Part shown: piece after piece, positions 45,025-56,536 of the stretch
Numbering within the stretch: position 1 is the stretch's first letter
How the letters are laid out: every line of letters starts with the position of its first letter
Origin: Goekera deserti
GTDB lineage: Bacteria > Actinomycetota > Actinomycetes > Mycobacteriales > Geodermatophilaceae
DNA length: 64,000 bases
Assembly (NCBI RefSeq): GCF_010685995.1
Contig: NZ_JAAGWK010000025.1
Location: 1 to 64,000, forward strand
Direction: 5' to 3'
Translations under genes and position numbers: made by a program
Notes under the pieces: model-generated
What the model was told of the DNA's origin: nothing
The model's input: the letters and a program-made list of their open reading frames with translations, nothing else
Database searches by the model: none

Positions 45025-47805
45025 GTGCACCCGAGCAGAGGGACCCTGGCGTGCCTCGGCGTGGCGGTCGCCGTCGTGGCCGGCAGTCCCGCGGTGCTGG
45101 CCCCGGCCGGCGCCGCGCTGGCCGGTCAACTGGTCGTGGTCGTCGTCGCCCTGGGCGCCGCGGTGGCGCTCTGGCGCGCCGGCGGGCGAGCCGTGGGCGG
45201 GCACCGGCGCGGCTGGCGCCTGCTCTCCGGGGCGGTGCTGACCGGGGTCGTCACCTCGACCGCGGAGCAGCTGCTCCGCGGTGCGGACGTGCTCCAGGCC
45301 GTCGACCCGCTGCGCGCCCTCGCCCCCGTCCCGGGCTCCGTGCTCGCCTGCCTCGGGCTGCTGAGCCTGCTCGGTCGCGTGCGTGCCCGGCGCACCGACG
45401 CCCGGCTCGTCGCCGAGATCGGCCTGTTCTACGCCGGCAGCGTCGTGCTGGCCCAGCTGTTCGTCGTGGCCCCGGCGGCCGGCCGGGGGCAGCTCGGCGT
45501 CCCCGGGCTGCTGTACGCGCAGCTGACCGTGCTCGCCGGCGCCGCCGTGCTGTCGGCCGGTCTCACGCTCATCGTCCGGACCCGCGGCGCCCGGCGCGCG
45601 CAGGCCGGCGTCGTCCTGCTCGCCCTCGCCCTGCTCGGTGGCGCCGACGGGCTGGCGACCGTGTTCGCCGAGGGCGTCCCCGCCGGTGCGACGCTCACGG
45701 CCCTCAGCCGCGTCCTGGACGTCACCGGCCTGCTCCTGCTGGCCCGGGCGGCAGCCTGCCGCGCGGTGCTCCGCCAGCCGGCGACCGCCGACCCGGCCGT
45801 GGACCCCAGCGCGGACTCCCCGGTCAGCCAGCGGCTGGGCCAGGTCGGTGAGCTGCTGCCCTACGCGGTGACCGTCGTCGCGGCCGTGGCCCTGGTGACC
45901 ACCACCGCCCTCGGCCGGCCGCCGGCGGCGTCCACCGTGGCCGCGGCCCTCGCCTGCGTGGTGCTCGCCGCGGTGCACCGGTGGGCGACGGCCCGCCAGG
46001 AGATCGCCCTGACCACCCGGCTGCGCCGCAGCGAGGCGCACTTCCGGTCACTCGTCCGCTCGAACACCGACGGCGTCCTGCTCCTGGACGGCGACGGGGT
46101 GGTCCTGTGGGCCGCCCCCTCCATCCTCGCGCCGTCGGGCGCCGACCCCGCCACCGTCGTGGGGCGGCGCCTGCTGGACGCCGTGCACCCGGACGACGTC
46201 CCCGCGCTGTCCGGCTGGCTGTCGACGCCCGACCCCGGCGCCGGGCAGGCGACCGGGCTGCACGCGTTCCGGCTGCCGCGTGCCGACGGCGGTCAGGTGC
46301 ACCTGGAGGCCAGCGCGACCGACCTGCGCGCCGACCCCGACGTGCGCGCGGTGGTGCTGCACTGCCGGGACGTCACCGCCCGGGTGGAGCGGGAGACCGA
46401 GCTGACCGCCCTGGCCTACACCGACGCGGTCACCGGGCTGCCCAACCGTGCCGCCCTGGCCGTCGCGCTCACCGCGGCGCTCGAGGCCGTGCCGGCGGTC
46501 GAGCTGACCGCCGCCGCCGTCGACCCGCCCACCGACGACACCGACGACGACGAGGAGCCCGACCCGTCGTCCGGCCCACCGGCGGCGGACGGGTCTGCCA
46601 CGCTGCTGCTGCTGGAGCTGGTCGGGCTGGGCGAGGCCCGCACCGCACTGGGGCGCGCCGGCGTCGACGTCGCGGTCGCCGAGGTCGGCGCCCGGTTGCG
46701 CGGCGTCCTGCGCACCGACGACGTCGTCGCCCGCTTCTCCGAGCAGGTGTTCGCCGTCCTGGCGCACGGCACCGCGGCCGAGGGCGAGCGGGTGGCCGCC
46801 CGCTGCCTGTCGGTGGTCGACCAGCCGATCAGCACTCCGCTCGGCCCGCTGGACCTGGCCGGCGACGTCGGGCTGGCCGCCCTGCGCCCCGGGCAGGGCA
46901 TCGAGGAGCTGGTGCAGCTGGCCGACCTGGCGCTGGCCGCGGCGGCCGAGGCGGGCCCCGGCGTGGTCCGGCAGGCCACGGCCTCGCTGCTTGCTGCCCG
47001 TGACCGCCGGGACCTGCTGCTGCGCGACCTCGTCGGCGCGCGGGCCCGGGGCGAGCTCGGCGTGGTCTACCAGCCGATCGTGTCCGTCGCCGAGCACCGG
47101 ATCACCGGCGCCGAGGCGCTGGTGCGCTGGACGCACCCGCTGCTGGGCGAGATCCCGCCGGAGGAGTTCCTGCCGATCGCCGAGCGTGCCGGTGTGCTGG
47201 CCGACCTGGAGCGCTGGGTGCTCGCCGAGGCCGCGACCGCCGCGGCCTCCCTGCCGGACGTCGGCGGGCCGCTGCGGATGGGCGTCGACGTCTCGGCCGG
47301 CCACGTGGCCACCGGGATGCTGGTCGGTCACGTGTCCGCCGCCCTGGCCCGCAGCGGGCTGGCGCCCGAGCGGCTCGTCGTCGAGGTGTCCGAGGCCGCG
47401 GTCACCGCCGACGGCGACCGGTTGCGCACCGAGTTCGACGCGCTGCGGCTGATGGGCGTGCGGGTCGGCCTGGACGGCTTCGGCGCGCACACCTCGGGGC
47501 TGTCCCACCTCACCCGGCTGCCCCTGGACCTGCTCAAGATCGACCGCAGCTTCCTCACCCGCATCGACCGCGACGCGACCACCCGGGCGCTGTGCGAGTC
47601 GACGATCCGGGTCTCCCAGGCGCTGGGCTTCGACGTCGTCGCGGTGGGCGTGGAGTCCCCCAGCGAGCTCGCCGTGCTCGGCCAGCTGGGCTGCGGCTCC
47701 GCCCAGGGCCGGCTGCTGGCCCGGCCGATGGCGCTGTCGGCGCTGCACGCGCTGGTGGAGGAGCGTGCCGGGCTGCTGTGGCCGGGCCTGGTCGGCCGGT
47801 CGTGA
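45025..47805 (+). CDS. Membrane PAS-GGDEF-EAL protein with degenerate catalytic sites
   Basis: 926 residues: about eight hydrophobic helices (1-330), a PAS domain (HFRSLVRSNTDGVLLLDGDG), a GGDEF-like domain and an EAL domain. The GGDEF active site is replaced by FSEQVF, and an acidic loop interrupts the domain near residue 510. In the EAL domain the EAL Glu and Lys (LLKIDRSF) remain, but the catalytic Asn is Asp (MGVDVSAGH), the second Asp of DDFG is Gly (LDGFGAH) and the AEGVE glutamate is Val (AVGVES). It is therefore probably a c-di-GMP sensor or regulatory partner, not an enzyme. The GTG at 45025 follows a short ACACTCAGTGT palindrome. Its stop overlaps the next gene. Confidence 0.85.
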   Translation: MHPSRGTLACLGVAVAVVAGSPAVLAPAGAALAGQLVVVVVALGAAVALWRAGGRAVGGHRRGWRLLSGAVLTGVVTSTAEQLLRGADVLQAVDPLRALAPVPGSVLACLGLLSLLGRVRARRTDARLVAEIGLFYAGSVVLAQLFVVAPAAGRGQLGVPGLLYAQLTVLAGAAVLSAGLTLIVRTRGARRAQAGVVLLALALLGGADGLATVFAEGVPAGATLTALSRVLDVTGLLLLARAAACRAVLRQPATADPAVDPSADSPVSQRLGQVGELLPYAVTVVAAVALVTTTALGRPPAASTVAAALACVVLAAVHRWATARQEIALTTRLRRSEAHFRSLVRSNTDGVLLLDGDGVVLWAAPSILAPSGADPATVVGRRLLDAVHPDDVPALSGWLSTPDPGAGQATGLHAFRLPRADGGQVHLEASATDLRADPDVRAVVLHCRDVTARVERETELTALAYTDAVTGLPNRAALAVALTAALEAVPAVELTAAAVDPPTDDTDDDEEPDPSSGPPAADGSATLLLLELVGLGEARTALGRAGVDVAVAEVGARLRGVLRTDDVVARFSEQVFAVLAHGTAAEGERVAARCLSVVDQPISTPLGPLDLAGDVGLAALRPGQGIEELVQLADLALAAAAEAGPGVVRQATASLLAARDRRDLLLRDLVGARARGELGVVYQPIVSVAEHRITGAEALVRWTHPLLGEIPPEEFLPIAERAGVLADLERWVLAEAATAAASLPDVGGPLRMGVDVSAGHVATGMLVGHVSAALARSGLAPERLVVEVSEAAVTADGDRLRTEFDALRLMGVRVGLDGFGAHTSGLSHLTRLPLDLLKIDRSFLTRIDRDATTRALCESTIRVSQALGFDVVAVGVESPSELAVLGQLGCGSAQGRLLARPMALSALHALVEERAGLLWPGLVGRS

Positions 47806-50555
47806 CCGGGCCCGCCACCGAGCGGGCCGCCGTGCTCCGCAGCGTGCTGGGCCTGCTCGGCGTCGCCGCGGTCCTGCTGTGCGTGCTGCAGGTCGCGGCA
47901 CCCGCGCGGACGGCCGACGCCGGCCCCGCCGTGCTCGCCGTCGCCTGCTGGGCGGTGGCCGCGGCCCTCGCCCGGCGTGCCCCGTCGTCGCGGGCCGTCC
48001 CGGCCCGGTCCGGCACGGCCCTGGCCGTCGCCCTGATGGGTGTCGGGCTGGGCGTGAGCGCCGCGCTCGGTGCCGGCGTCCCCGACGGGTCGACCGGCTG
48101 GCTCGACCTGCCGCTGGTGCTCGCCCTGCTGCTGGCGCTGGTCGCCTGTGGTCGGCTGGTGGGCCGCGCCCCGCGCCCACGGATCGGTTCACGGGTGCTG
48201 CTCGACGCCGCGGCGGCCGCCCTGGCCGGCGGCGTGCTGGTCGAGCTGTTGGTCTCCGGCGCGGTGCCCGCGGCCGGCGCCGCCACCGGGGTGCTGGTGG
48301 AGATCGGGCACCCCGTGGTCGGTGCCGTGCTGGTGGCCCTCGTCGTGGTCGTGCTCACCGCCACGCCGCGGGGCAGCCGGGCGGGCGCCCGGTGGCTGCT
48401 CACCGCACTCGTCGCGCTGACGGTGGTCGCCGTCAGCGGCGCCCTGGGCGGGGTCGACAGCGGGCTGGACCTGGTGGCCGGGCTCGCCTGGCTGGGGGCG
48501 CTGGCCGCGGGGCTGCTCGCCGCCGTCCACCGTCCCGGCGCCGCGCGGCAGGGCACGCCGCGGCCGGTCGGCGGGGCTCCGGCCACGCTGCCGCCGTCCG
48601 GGATCGTGCTCGGCCACGGCGCGTGCGCGGTGCTGGTGCTCCCGGTCCTCGCCGGCCCGGCCGCCGGGTACCCGGTGGACGCCGCTGCGGCCGCGGGCGC
48701 GGCGCTGCTGCTGGTGGTGACGCTGGTCCGCAGCCTGCTCCGGGCGGCCGACGGCGACCGCCTGGCCCGGCAGCTGGTGCACACCGAGGCGCACTTCCGC
48801 AGCCTGGTGCAGCACTCCTCGGACATGACCGTGGTGCTCGACGCCACCGGGCGGGTGAGCTGGGTGTCCAGCGCCGTCGCGACGCAGCTCGGCTGGTCGG
48901 CCCGGGAGCTGTGCGGGCGCGCCCTGGTCGACCTCGTGCACGCCGAGGACCGGCCGGCGCTGCGCCCGGTGGTCGGCGGCGCGCCCGGACCGGGGGGCAC
49001 GGTGCACCTGCGGGTCCGGACCCGGCAGGGCGCCTGGCGCGAGCTCGAGGGCTCCTGGGCAGGGCGGCCCACCGGGCCCGCCGCGGACGGCCCGCGCGGG
49101 GCGGCGGACGGCGACGCCGGCGACACCGTGCTCTCCCTGCGGGACGTCACCGAACGCCGCAGCACCCAGCGCCGGCTGGAACAGCTGGCCTACACCGACC
49201 ACCTGACCGGGCTGGCCAACCGCCCCCGGTTCGAGACCGCGCTCACCGCCTCCTGGGCCCGGCTCGCCGAGGGCTCGGCCGGCTGCGTGCTGCTGCTGGA
49301 CCTGGACGGCTTCAAGGCCGTCAACGACGTCGCCGGGCACCACGCCGGGGACCGGCTGCTCGTCGAGGTGGCCGACCGGCTGCGGGCCGTCGTGCGGGAC
49401 CGCGACCTGGTGGCCCGCCTCGGTGGGGACGAGTTCGCCGTCCTGGTGCACGCCGGGATCACAGAGGCGACCGCGCTCGGCGAGCGGGTCGTCGCCGCCC
49501 TGGACGGCGGCTACCGGCTGGACGGCGCCGATGACGACGGCCGGCCGCTGCAGTTCGCCGTCTCCTGCAGCGGTGGGGTGGCCGCGCTGGGCGCCGACCG
49601 GGACGCCGCGACCGCCGTCCGGCAGGCGGACTCCGCGCTGCGCGCGGCGAAGGCCGCGGGCAAGACGTGCGTGCGGGTGCACGCCGACACCGTGGACAGC
49701 GCCACCGGCCGGCGCACCCGGCTGGTCCGTGACCTGCCCGAGGCGCTGGCCCACGGGGAGCTGCAGCTGGCCTACCAGCCGGTCGCCGGGATCGAGCAGC
49801 GCGCGGTGCTGGGCGTGGAGGCGCTGATCCGCTGGGAGCACCCGACGCTGGGTGCCGTGCTGCCGCACGAGTTCGTCGGCCTGGCCGAGGAGGACGGCAT
49901 GATCGTGCCCCTGCAGCGCTGGGTGCTGGAGCAGGCGACCCGGGACCTGGCCGGGTGGCTGGCCGAGGGCCGCGACCTGCAGCTGGGCGTGAACATCTCC
50001 GTGCGGCACCTGCAGGCCGGCTGCCTGGTCGAGGACGTGGAGGCCGCGCTGGAGCGCGCGTCGCTGCCGGCCCGCCGGCTCATGGTCGAGCTGACCGAGT
50101 CCATGCTGCTGGACGACAACGAGCGGACCCGGGCCGAGGTGGCCCGGCTGCGTGCCACCGGCTGCGTGATCTCGCTGGACGACTTCGGTCGCGGGTCCTC
50201 CTCCTTCGGGCACCTCGCCGGCTCCCCGGTGGACGTGATCAAGATGGACCGCGCCTTCACCGCCGGGGTGGACACCGACCCGCGCCGCGCCGTCGTCGTC
50301 CAGGGCGTGGTGGACATCGGCCGCCGGCTCGGCATCGACGTCGTCGGGGGAGGGGTGGAGACCGCCGACCAGCTGGCGGCACTGCGGGCGATCGGCTGCC
50401 TGTTCGTCCAGGGCTGGCTGATCGGGCGCCCGGTGCCGGCCGCCGAGCTGCCCGCGATGCTGGACGGGTTCGACCCGGCGGTGCTGGACGGCGCGCCGGT
50501 GAGGACGGTCGACGGTGCGGTCACGACCTCCCGGGCGCTGCCCGTACCGGGCTGA
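47802..50555 (+). CDS. Membrane PAS-GGDEF-EAL protein, probable diguanylate cyclase
   Basis: 917 residues, coupled to the preceding gene by GTGA. An N-terminal membrane region (~300 residues, about eight helices) is followed by a PAS domain (HFRSLVQHSSDMTVVLDATG), an intact GGDEF domain (YTDHLTGLANR, VARLGGDEFAVL) with an RDRD inhibitory-site motif five residues before GGDEF, and an EAL domain. Most EAL residues are kept (VEALIRWEH, LGVNISVRH, MVELTESML, LDDFGRG, VIKMDRAF), but the first Glu of AEGVE is Gly (VVGGGVET), which is expected to impair phosphodiesterase activity. Net c-di-GMP synthesis is the likelier role. The neighbouring degenerate paralogue may partner it. Confidence 0.87.
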   Translation: MTGPATERAAVLRSVLGLLGVAAVLLCVLQVAAPARTADAGPAVLAVACWAVAAALARRAPSSRAVPARSGTALAVALMGVGLGVSAALGAGVPDGSTGWLDLPLVLALLLALVACGRLVGRAPRPRIGSRVLLDAAAAALAGGVLVELLVSGAVPAAGAATGVLVEIGHPVVGAVLVALVVVVLTATPRGSRAGARWLLTALVALTVVAVSGALGGVDSGLDLVAGLAWLGALAAGLLAAVHRPGAARQGTPRPVGGAPATLPPSGIVLGHGACAVLVLPVLAGPAAGYPVDAAAAAGAALLLVVTLVRSLLRAADGDRLARQLVHTEAHFRSLVQHSSDMTVVLDATGRVSWVSSAVATQLGWSARELCGRALVDLVHAEDRPALRPVVGGAPGPGGTVHLRVRTRQGAWRELEGSWAGRPTGPAADGPRGAADGDAGDTVLSLRDVTERRSTQRRLEQLAYTDHLTGLANRPRFETALTASWARLAEGSAGCVLLLDLDGFKAVNDVAGHHAGDRLLVEVADRLRAVVRDRDLVARLGGDEFAVLVHAGITEATALGERVVAALDGGYRLDGADDDGRPLQFAVSCSGGVAALGADRDAATAVRQADSALRAAKAAGKTCVRVHADTVDSATGRRTRLVRDLPEALAHGELQLAYQPVAGIEQRAVLGVEALIRWEHPTLGAVLPHEFVGLAEEDGMIVPLQRWVLEQATRDLAGWLAEGRDLQLGVNISVRHLQAGCLVEDVEAALERASLPARRLMVELTESMLLDDNERTRAEVARLRATGCVISLDDFGRGSSSFGHLAGSPVDVIKMDRAFTAGVDTDPRRAVVVQGVVDIGRRLGIDVVGGGVETADQLAALRAIGCLFVQGWLIGRPVPAAELPAMLDGFDPAVLDGAPVRTVDGAVTTSRALPVPG

Positions 50556-50603: not shown

Positions 50604-50632
50604 TTGACGCCGGGCCGGGGGGAGCGCATGGT
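50604..50632 (+). promoter_or_regulatory. ilvB operon promoter
   Basis: TTGACG (50604-50609), a 17-bp spacer and CATGGT (50627-50632). This is the only clear -35/-10 pair I found in the window. Transcription would begin at or next to the leader-peptide GTG at 50639. Confidence 0.6.
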
Positions 50633-50638
50633 GTGCAT

Positions 50639-50674
50639 GTGCTCCACGCCCGCACCCTCGTAGTCATCGACTAG
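50639..50674 (+). CDS. ilvB attenuation leader peptide
   Basis: An 11-codon reading frame encoding MLHARTLVVID (or MHVLHARTLVVID from GTG 50633). It holds two Leu, two Val and one Ile codon, with a Leu-Val-Val-Ile run just before the stop. Ribosome stalling there when branched-chain aminoacyl-tRNAs are scarce would free downstream RNA to form an antiterminator. Comparable ilvB leaders are known or predicted in other actinobacteria (family knowledge). The -10 box leaves no room for a ribosome site, so the peptide is probably translated from a leaderless end. Confidence 0.75.
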   Translation: MLHARTLVVID

Positions 50675-50698
50675 CGCGCCGGTCCGACGACCGACGCG
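50675..50698 (+). promoter_or_regulatory. Pause hairpin of the ilvB leader
   Basis: CGCG-CGGTC-CGAC-GACCG-CGCG, nine pairs with one internal mismatch, starts immediately after the leader-peptide stop. It fits the 1:2 pause structure of a classical attenuator. Confidence 0.55.
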
Positions 50699-50701
50699 CC
50701 G

Positions 50702-50734
50702 ACCCCTCCGTGCCCCGGGCACGAGGGGTTTTTT
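50702..50734 (+). terminator. ilvB attenuator terminator
   Basis: Arms ACCCCTC + GTGCC pair with GGCAC + GAGGGGT (one bulged C at 50709), followed by six T residues (50729-50734). It ends 60 bp before ilvB and is the only U-tailed intrinsic terminator I found in the window. Confidence 0.8.
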
Positions 50735-50794
50735 GTTGCCACGAGACCCGGCGCACACCGCACGCCCGCCCTGCAGCCTCAGGAGTTCATCCAG

Positions 50795-52732
50795 ATGAGC
50801 ACCACCACGCCCGTGACCCCGGCCCCGACCCCCGCCGTCCAGGCCGCCGCCCCGGTCGCCGGTGACGTCCGCGAGGCGCCGTCGGCTGCTGCGGCCGTCG
50901 CCACGCTCGGCGTGGAGACGACCACCCGCACGCCCCGCGAGATGGCCGCCGAGCCGGTCACCGGCATCACCGGCGCGCAGAGCCTGGTGCGCTCGCTGGA
51001 GGCGGTCGGCGTCGAGGTCGTCTTCGGCATCCCCGGCGGGGCGATCCTGCCGGCCTACGACCCGCTGTTCGACTCCGCGGTGCGGCACGTGCTGGTCCGG
51101 CATGAGCAGGGCGGCGGCCACGCGGCCACCGGGTACGCGCAGGCCACCGGCAAGGTGGGCGTCTGCATGGCCACCTCCGGCCCCGGCGCGACCAACCTGG
51201 TCACCCCGCTGGCCGACGCGCACATGGACTCCGTCCCGATCGTCGCCATCACCGGCCAGGTGCCCAGCGGCGCCATCGGCACCGACGCCTTCCAGGAGGC
51301 GGACATCCGCGGCATCACCATGCCGGTCACCAAGCACAACTTCCTGGTCACCTGCGCCGACGACATCCCGCAGCGGATCGCCGAGGCCTTCCACCTGGCC
51401 AGCACCGGGCGCCCCGGGCCGGTCCTGGTGGACATCCCCAAGGACGTGCTCCAGGCCACCACCGACTTCTCCTGGCCGCCGCGGCTGGACCTGCCCGGCT
51501 ACAAGCCGACCACCCGCCCGCACAGCAAGCAGGTGCGCGAGGCCGCGGCGATGATCGCCGCCGCCCGCCAGCCGGTGCTCTACGTCGGCGGCGGCGTGCT
51601 CAAGGCCGGCGCGTCCCAGGTGCTGGCAGAGCTGGCCGAGCTGACCGGCGCGCCGGTGGTGACCACGCTGATGGCCCGCGGTGTCTTCCCGGACAGCCAC
51701 CCGCTGAACATCGGCATGCCCGGCATGCACGGCAACGTCACCGCGGTCACGGCGTTGCAGAAGGCCGACCTGCTCATCGCGCTGGGCACCCGCTTCGACG
51801 ACCGGGTGACCGGCAACCTCGACTCGTTCGCCCCGCACGCCAAGGTCGTGCACGCCGACATCGACCCGGCCGAGATCGGCAAGAACCGCGTCGCCGACGT
51901 CCCGATCGTGGGGGACGCCAAGGAGACGATCACCGAGCTGGTCGCCGCCCTGCAGGCCCTGCGCGGCACCGGCCCGGTGGCGGACCTGTCCGCCTGGTGG
52001 GCCCAGCTGCACCGCTGGCAGGCGACCTACCCGCTCGGCTACGACTGGCCCGAGGACGGCTCGCTGGCCCCGCAGTACGTGATCGAGCGGCTCAGCGCGA
52101 TCGTCGGCCCGGACGCCGTCTACGCCTCCGGTGTCGGCCAGCACCAGATGTGGGCCGCCCAGTTCGTGCAGTATGAGAAGCCCGGCACCTGGCTGAACAG
52201 CGGTGGCCTGGGCACGATGGGGTACGCCGTGCCCGCCGCCATGGGCGCCAAGTACGGCCTGCCCGATACCACGGTGTGGGCGATCGACGGCGACGGCTGC
52301 TTCCAGATGACCAACCAGGAGCTGGCCACCTGCGCGATCGAGGGCATCCCGATCAAGGTCGCCGTGATCAACAACGGCAACCTCGGCATGGTCCGCCAGT
52401 GGCAGACCCTGTTCTACGAGGGCCGGTACTCCAACACGCACCTGAGCACCCACGGCAGCAAGGCCGACGCCGGCACCCCGCGCTCGGTGCGCATCCCGGA
52501 CTTCGTCGCCCTGGCCGAGGCGCTGGGCTGCGTGGGGCTGCGCTGCGAGACCCGCGAGGACGTCGACGCCACGATCGAGAAGGCGATGGCGATCAACGAC
52601 CGCCCGGTGGTGGTCGACTTCATCGTCGGCGCCGACGCCCAGGTGTGGCCGATGGTGGCCGCCGGCTCCAGCAACGACGACATCCTCGCCGCGCGCGACG
52701 TGCGACCCGTCTTCGGGGAGAACCAGGTGTAA
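50795..52732 (+). CDS. ilvB: Acetolactate synthase, large catalytic subunit
   Basis: ThDP- and FAD-dependent enzyme condensing pyruvate with pyruvate or 2-oxobutyrate, the first shared step of branched-chain amino acid synthesis. 645 residues; the first ~55 (Thr/Pro/Ala-rich) precede the catalytic core [23 protein letters not shown]. The catalytic Glu is in [17 protein letters not shown], and the ThDP-Mg motif is [30 protein letters not shown] lies about 11 bases upstream of the ATG. First structural gene of ilvBNC, behind an attenuator. Confidence 0.96.
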
Positions 52733-54635: not shown

Positions 54636-55292
54636 TCAGGAGGTGCCGCGGCCGGCGAACCAGGCGCTGTTCTGCCGGATGAACACCACGATGAGGATCG
54701 GGAGCACGAAGCCGAGGATCCCGCCGAACGCGGTACCGCCGCCGTCGACGAGCACCACGATGATCGACAGCACGTTGACCGCGATCGCGCCGTACGCAGC
54801 GTTGAGCAGCAGCTGCGGCGCCTGGCCGCGGATCACCTGGATGCCGCCGACCAGCATCGCCACGCCGACGACCAGCCCGAGCAGCGTCAGGATGCCGTAG
54901 AGCGGGCTGAGGTCGAAGGCGAAGCCGATCGCGAACAGGTTGAGCATGCTGATCGTGCCGATCACGATCCCGATGACGCCCGCGGCGGTCACCTGACCCG
55001 GCCGCTTGCCGGTCGGGGCGTCCCCGTAGCCGGCCGGGGCGCTCGGGTAACCGCCCGGACCCTGCGGTGCCTGGCCGTAGGGCGGCGGCTGCTGGCCGTA
55101 CCCGCCGGCCTGCTGGCCGTACGGCGGGGGCTGCTGGCCGTACCCGCCGGCCTGCTGGCCGTAGGGCGGGGGCTGCTGCCCGTAGGCCGGAGGCTGCTGG
55201 CCGTAGGGCGGCTGCTGCCCGTAGCCCGGCTGCGGGCCCTGGCCTCCGCCCTGCTGGGAGTAGGGGTCCTCGCCGGACGTGGGGGTGGACAT
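54636..55292 (-). CDS. Four-helix membrane protein with YGQ-rich N-terminal tail (short paralogue)
   Basis: 218 residues. The first ~95 are a cytoplasmic-type low-complexity tail of Tyr-Gly-Gln-Gln-Pro-Pro repeats (about eight YGQ units). Four hydrophobic helices follow, including [33 protein letters not shown] and [13 protein letters not shown]. The end ([13 protein letters not shown]) is polar. ATG 55292 is chosen because the frame upstream loses the compositional pattern. It lies 103 bp downstream of a longer paralogue with the same layout, so the two probably share an operon. Function unknown. Confidence 0.75.
55023..55226 (-). repeat. In-frame repeats encoding YGQQPP units
   Basis: DNA repeats of TACGGCCAGCAG-type units encode the Tyr-Gly-Gln tail of the short paralogue (about residues 23-90). 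Such repeats can expand or contract. Confidence 0.8.
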
Positions 55293-55395
55293 GGGAGATG
55301 AGCCTCCTGGGCCTGGTGGGGGACGGTCGTGCACGGTGACACGGTGCGGCGCTGCGCGCGACCCGGGCGGCTGCCCGGGGCGTGAGGGGGAGCGG

Positions 55396-56364
55396 TCAGG
55401 ACCCCCGGTGCGCCCGGTGGGCGGCGTAGAAGCGCGCCGCGCTGCCGAGGCACAGCAGCACCACGATGGCCACGGCCATCGCGAAGAAGAGCAGGCTGAA
55501 CAGCACGCCACCGGTGGTGGGGTCGTCGAAGCTGCCGAGCAGGCCCAGGCCGGTCGCGGCGATGCTGATCGAGCCGCCCACGAGCAGCAGCACGCGGCTG
55601 CGGCCGTTCAGCGCCCGCACCGAACCCCAGATCATCACCACGGTCCAGGCCAGCGCCATGAAGGCGAACAACACCAGCACGGCGGTGACGCCGTCGGTGA
55701 GGCCGTTCAGCCCCGGGATGTCGTCGAACTCCCCGGACGCGCCGCCGATGAAGGCCGCGCCGATGAACGAGAAGACGGTGACCAGCACGCCCAGGGCCCC
55801 GAACACGAAACCGAACACCGCCGCGGTCACCACCCCGGCCGGCTTGGCGGGCAGGGGGCCGTAGGGGGACTGGCCGTAGGGTGCCTGCCCGTAGCCGGCC
55901 TGCCCGTAGGCCGGCGCCTGCCCGTACCCGGCCTGTCCGTAGGCCGGGGCCCGCCCGTACCCGGCCTGGCCGTAGCCGGCGACCTGGCCGTGATCGGACT
56001 GGCCGTAGCTGTTCTGGCCGTAGCCGCTCTGCCCGTAGCCGCTCTGCCCGTAGCTGCTCTGCCCGTAGCTGCTCTGCCCGTAGCTGCTCTGGGCCTGGTC
56101 GCCCTGCTCGTACGGCGCCTGGCCGTAGCCCGCCTGCCCGTACTGCGTCCCGTAGCCGGGCTGCCCCTGCCCGTAGGCCGGCTCCTGCCCACCCGACTGC
56201 CCGTAGGCAGTGCTGCCCTGCCCGTACTGCTGCCCGTACGGCGCCGAGCCCTGCCCACCGGTCGCACCCGGGGTGCCCGTGTCGAAGGGGGTCGTCCAGC
56301 TGCGGTCGCCCCCGTCGCGCCCGCCGTCCGTGCGGGCCTGGTCGTCGTCCTGCTGGTTGCTCAT
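55396..56364 (-). CDS. Four-helix membrane protein with long YGQ-rich N-terminal tail
   Basis: 322 residues. Residues ~1-40 are acidic and polar; ~42-170 hold about eighteen YGQ units ([22 protein letters not shown]), a prion-like composition. Four helices follow, including [40 protein letters not shown] and [17 protein letters not shown], then a basic end ([12 protein letters not shown]). ATG 56364 (MSNQQDDDQ) is the start that avoids an unrelated upstream extension. It is divergent from serA. Function unknown. Confidence 0.75.
55855..56241 (-). repeat. In-frame repeats encoding YGQ units of the long paralogue
   Basis: Degenerate 12-15 bp units encode (S/G/A)-x-Y-G-Q. The densest part, near 56035-56095, has nearly identical consecutive [10 protein letters not shown] units. 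Confidence 0.8.
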
Positions 56365-56536
56365 GGTCCCCTCCGCGCAGCAGTCGGCGACTGCCGACCA
56401 TGTGCCGCCAGGATGTCCGGCACAGCCCGTCCACGGCAAGCACAAGGCATCCGGTGGGGTGACCCGCGCGCCGGACGTCGTCCTCCGCGGTGCCCCGGCG
56501 TGTCGGACCGCCGCCGACCGGTGGACCCCGCGCTCC

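Follow-up and report, generated by a model that had tools for sequence, protein, structure and literature searches.

A leaderless-peptide attenuator of the known actinobacterial class probably precedes ilvB in a Geodermatophilaceae genome

Leader peptides with terminators ahead of ilvB were predicted in 2005 in Corynebacterium, Mycobacterium and Streptomyces, the mode of regulation being left unclear (PMC1262725). The ilvBNC leader peptide of Corynebacterium glutamicum is described as lacking a ribosome site, with its start 1 nt from the end of the transcript (Morbach 2000, as cited in PMC11857589), and IlvL of Streptomyces lividans is transcribed leaderless according to RNA-seq (PMC8079986). 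For S. coelicolor, changed ilvB leader codons are reported to have left regulation unaffected (Craster 1999, as reported in PMC1262725). For Mycobacterium tuberculosis ilvB1, codon-dependent attenuation was shown with LVVI and GUA in the leader, and the change of LVVI to AAAA abolishes induction (PMC13236596). A preliminary description of the locus treated here stated that attenuation of ilvB is known in actinobacteria.

Here we present an analysis of the region upstream of ilvB in the window, a stretch of 64,000 nucleotides from a Geodermatophilaceae genome. A promoter, a peptide of 11 or 13 residues with a Leu-Val-Val-Ile run, a hairpin directly after its stop codon and a T6 terminator had been described within 50604-50734, and each was found at its place (Table 1). 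Directly upstream, on the same strand, lies an ORF of the GGDEF/EAL type (47592-50555), which ends 239 bp before ilvB. The N-terminus of IlvB is rich in Ala, Pro and Thr over about 57 residues (50795-50965), and matches to actinobacterial IlvB proteins usually begin at query residue 58. Adjacent ORFs with YGQ-rich repeats are located on the minus strand at 54636-56445.

Table 1. Features of the ilvB leader region, with positions in the window
Feature	Position	Strand	Remarks
-35 element TTGACG	50604-50609	+	TTGACG in all matched Geodermatophilaceae loci
-10-like element CATGGT	50627-50632	+	spacer 17; relatives: CACAGT in 44/48
GTGCAT	50633-50638	+	six bases separating the -10 element from GTG 50639
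Leader peptide ORF VLHARTLVVID, 11 codons	50639-50671	+	GTG at the putative transcript 5' end
Control codons CTC GTA GTC ATC (Leu-Val-Val-Ile)	50657-50668	+	GTA very rare
Leader stop codon TAG	50672-50674	+	TAGCGCG conserved in the family
Hairpin P1, candidate antiterminator	50674-50699	+	begins 14 nt after GTA
Intrinsic terminator T	50701-50734	+	stem 50701-50730, T6 50729-50734
ilvB, acetohydroxyacid synthase large subunit	50795-52732	+	regulated gene; SD AGGAG 50781-50785

Very probably the region controls the ilvB-ilvN-ilvC cluster as a transcription attenuator that depends on translation and has a leaderless start, and in which P1 would serve as antiterminator by its position. The predicted promoter, leaderless start and control codons, as well as the structures P1 and T, are supported by sequence comparison; where the ribosome stands in the model follows from geometry, and for P1 an antiterminator role exerted by its placement next to the base of T is proposed.

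The family set comprises 50 Geodermatophilaceae ilvB upstream regions, the window included, and the whole layout was recovered by pattern in 48 of them. The wider set consists of 55 ilvB loci from beyond the family, most of them actinobacterial. The combination of -35 element, -10 element, start codon and a short ORF rich in Leu, Val and Ile was present in 32 of these 55 loci (0.00 expected from dinucleotide shuffles), a number that counts conforming loci and not the share of leadered ones, since the scan demanded a start codon 6-8 nt from the -10 element. Among the matching loci are those of Mycobacterium, Rhodococcus, Nocardia, Pseudonocardiales, Streptomyces, Actinomadura and several Micrococcales; those lacking a match belong chiefly to Microbacteriaceae and Bifidobacterium. 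Measures on P1 and T refer to 78 leaders, 30 from the wider set (same scan) and 48 from the family (pattern with TAGCGCG and a T-run).

An intrinsic terminator between leader ORF and ilvB, one of the features that define the class, is present in the window, where T is the only site on either strand of the 64 kb to pass a filter requiring at least 5 T behind a hairpin no less stable than -12 kcal/mol. P1 pairs GCGCG-C-CGGTC with GACCG-A-CGCGC; it overlaps the end of the stop codon by one base, and 1 nt separates it from the stem of T. Folded together, P1 and T reach -39.9 kcal/mol, compared with a shuffle mean of -24.1 (z -5.4; 0 of 200 shuffles). The gap between P1 and T is 0-2 nt in all 78 leaders, while the length of P1 spans 26 to 77 nt, and P1 starts 8-14 nt past the GTA of the control run in every leader having one. 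A small gap alone is unremarkable, occurring in 60-66% of shuffles; distinctive is its combination with stem strength, as a gap of at most 2 nt together with a P1 of -12 kcal/mol or better was found in 78 of 78 leaders versus 8% (family) and 33% (wider set) of shuffled sequences upstream of T. The lower five P1 pairs are invariant GCGCG/CGCGC in the wider set; inside the family the invariance of GCGCG arises partly by selection, because the family pattern contains TAGCGCG. Positions 6-9 of P1 vary with compensation across actinobacteria, with 87.5% paired compared with 63% in shuffles (0 of 5000 reach it; each sequence counted once, kinship uncorrected). An Rfam search delivered no match among 4227 models up to E 10.

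In the proposed switch, RNA polymerase would start at GTG 50639 or within a nucleotide or so of it, and the ribosome would load directly on the 5' end. The leading edge of a ribosome is taken to lie about 12 nt past the first nucleotide of the codon in the A site. With plentiful branched-chain aminoacyl-tRNA the ribosome would reach TAG 50672, its footprint extending to about 50684, where the 5' arm of P1 ends; with P1 thus blocked, T would end transcription. With Val, Leu or Ile in short supply the ribosome would stall within CTC-GTA-GTC-ATC, mainly at GTA 50660, a rare codon, where its leading edge would come to lie near 50672, so that P1 (from 50674) would be free to fold; by its position P1 would then make it harder for the base of the terminator to close in the exit channel, and transcription would proceed into ilvB.

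The leader was folded with the ribosome footprints masked. T kept a pair probability of about 0.95 in every ribosome state, no base-sharing alternative appeared, and the 5' arm of the terminator was mostly free in the stalled state; for these reasons folding alone does not explain the switch, a point that weighs against the preferred model, as do the ineffective codon changes reported for S. coelicolor. The minimum free energy method ignores cotranscriptional kinetics and coaxial stacking. Neither folding nor extension of P1 revealed an antiterminator sharing bases with the terminator in the window, and the word 'complete', which had been applied to the attenuator, was therefore too strong. 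P1 is proposed to act by position because it shares no terminator base. It may accordingly be described as a conserved structure that does not compete for terminator bases and whose position appears tied to both of its neighbours, the stalled ribosome and the terminator. Two candidate antiterminators were rejected. The first, drawn by eye, pairs GGTC and GCGCG of the P1 5' arm with GACC and CGTGC, respectively, of the terminator, and depends on a GACC that is not kept across the family (e.g. L008, L013 and L117). In the second, which pairs CCTCGT of the leader with ACGAGG of the terminator, the logic runs the wrong way, because the stalled ribosome would cover the leader strand, and the pairing is weaker in mycobacterial loci. 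CTCGTA of the leader (50657-50662), which is similar to the 5' arm of the terminator, is able to pair with ACGAG of the terminator (50721-50728); this pairing was judged not functional, since the stalled ribosome would cover the leader strand.

A classical trp-type antiterminator that shares terminator bases and was missed by folding, being non-nested or longer-range, would leave the attenuator the same and concerns the last step only, in which the terminator is stopped by P1 or by some other structure. Such an element is rather unlikely: adjacent hairpins of C. glutamicum ilvBNC are reported to overlap at a boundary GCC (PMC11857589), and in two Mycolicibacterium loci P1 can be lengthened into the terminator core, by 3 nt in L046 and by 2 nt in L051, but P1 extended outward reaches the core in 4 of the 78 leaders, no core base is shared in 74 (47 of 48 in the family, 27 of 30 in the wider set), and the 5' arm of T remains unsequestered in the stalled state. 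The positional action of P1 might also be extended to the class, so that the actinobacterial ilvB attenuator would switch without alternative base pairing, a P1 dependent on stalling at GTA and carrying the invariant GCGCG/CGCGC clamp physically keeping the lowest terminator pairs apart in the exit channel of RNA polymerase; we put this forward as a tentative generalisation that is more doubtful than probable. Literature searches for earlier reports of a hairpin that abuts a terminator and acts on it yielded nothing of direct relevance.

Another defining feature of the class, a short ORF that precedes ilvB and contains a Leu/Val/Ile run, is likewise present in the window, and it is conserved in the 50 family loci. 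All 48 family leaders contain a GTA valine codon, GTA accounting for 48 of 92 internal leader valines, compared with 0.18% of the Val codons across 30 IlvB genes of the family and none of the 91 in ilvB and ilvC of the window. The final LVVA/VLVLA run is preceded in some family members by an insert such as DGCPVN or PADARTRG (L012, L016, L017, L019, L021, L026, L033 and L122; also L023, L024, L027, L028, L030 and L116), with the spacing of start, P1 and terminator unaltered. It is conceivable, though improbable, that terminator and ORF are present without the ORF exerting control, ilvB expression being set either by a constitutive partial terminator or by a protein or Rho; the S. coelicolor codon changes reported as having no effect (PMC1262725) and the formation of T in all modelled states agree with this, but the rare GTA is conserved at a near-fixed distance to P1 and codon dependence was shown in M. 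tuberculosis (PMC13236596).

The window promoter was not called by a generic sigma-70 scan because CATGGT is a poor match, and its deviation from the Geodermatophilaceae -10 consensus counts against the attenuator with leaderless start as the best explanation. The support for the promoter is comparative: TTGACG-N17/18-nAnnnT-N6-GTG occurs in all 48 relatives matched by pattern, with a spacer of 17 or 18 in each and CACAGT in 44, followed by six variable bases and GTG. The loci L018 and L022, read by eye, have the same promoter and start layout with a weaker U-tract. That the -10 element ends six bases before GTG 50639, as previously described, was confirmed, and the same 6 nt, variable in sequence, are found in 50 of 50 family loci. 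The base after the GTG start (50639-50642) is C in all 48 pattern-matched family leaders and T in L018.

No conserved ribosome site for the leader GTG was found among the 50 Geodermatophilaceae ilvB upstream regions, and SD-like sites of -6 kcal/mol or better occur upstream of the equivalent of GTG 50639 in 2% of family loci versus 19% of random 15-mers drawn from the same loci. The earlier statement that no ribosome site is left holds if transcription starts near 50639; otherwise it fails, as the purine tract GGGGGGAG at 50616-50623, upstream of GTG 50633, pairs with the anti-SD sequence at -9.4 kcal/mol. A leadered version of the same attenuation, with transcription from upstream of 50616 and a 13-codon reading opened at GTG 50633 by way of GGGGGGAG, has this pairing at a suitable distance in its favour but is highly improbable, for the tract could serve GTG 50633 only with a transcription start upstream of the promoter spacer, and it sits within the -35/-10 spacer, which is variable in relatives. 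Moreover, all relatives have GTG 50639, but just 17 of 48 have GTG as the in-frame codon at 50633, a difference that speaks against the 13-residue peptide.

The leader peptide is thus probably translated leaderless, from the very first base of the message. The Streptomyces loci L039 and L041, matched in the wider scan, encode MRTRILVLGKRVG, identical to the peptide transcribed leaderless in S. lividans, and this match serves as a positive control for deducing a leaderless start from the distance to the -10 element. Comparison lends good support to an ilvB attenuator whose 11-residue peptide is leaderless. The leaderless arrangement had been singled out as the notable part, a view that did not hold: it is already reported for C. 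glutamicum, in the description cited above, and for S. lividans (PMC8079986), and it appears to be common in the actinobacterial ilvB attenuator class.

As leaderless leader starts and codon-dependent attenuation of ilvB have already been reported, the leader in the window is an ordinary member of this class. It shares with M. tuberculosis ilvB1NC (PMC13236596) the LVVI codons with GUA, a post-codon hairpin and a Rho-independent terminator upstream of ilvB; that paper describes a mutually exclusive terminator and antiterminator, whereas in the mycobacterial relatives compared here P1 and T mostly abut without shared core bases, and it does not stress a leaderless uORF start. With S. lividans ilvL (PMC8079986), the transcript of which is leaderless, it shares a short Ile/Leu/Val peptide, hairpins and a U-rich terminator before the cluster, there ilvBHC; in that type, however, the stop codon lies within P1 and not at its first base, and P1 measures 68 nt in L039 and L041 compared with 26 nt in the window. 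Adjacent bases of antiterminator and terminator hairpins are also known from C. glutamicum ilvBNC and the ilvB-II motif (PMC11857589, PMC10272879), and the 1-nt leader start without ribosome site there would correspond to a start at the putative transcript end here. The C. glutamicum hairpins overlap at a GCC trinucleotide, whereas the window and 74 of the 78 leaders have no such overlap; the boundary trinucleotide of the Corynebacterium ilvB-II or 'fast' attenuator is absent in the window, and the proposed positional action of P1 resembles that attenuator (PMC11857589) minus the shared GCC. The window leader would work like an attenuator, yet it is not classed as trp-type, as an antiterminator sharing terminator bases was found neither in the window nor, at the level of core bases, in those 74 leaders.

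For the genome of the window the analysis offers a specific prediction of how ilvB would be controlled. The measured layout, with a rare GTA, P1 8-14 nt further on, T 0-2 nt after P1 and 74 of 78 leaders without shared core bases, narrows the question of regulation, and it applies also to the relatives in Streptomyces and Mycobacterium.
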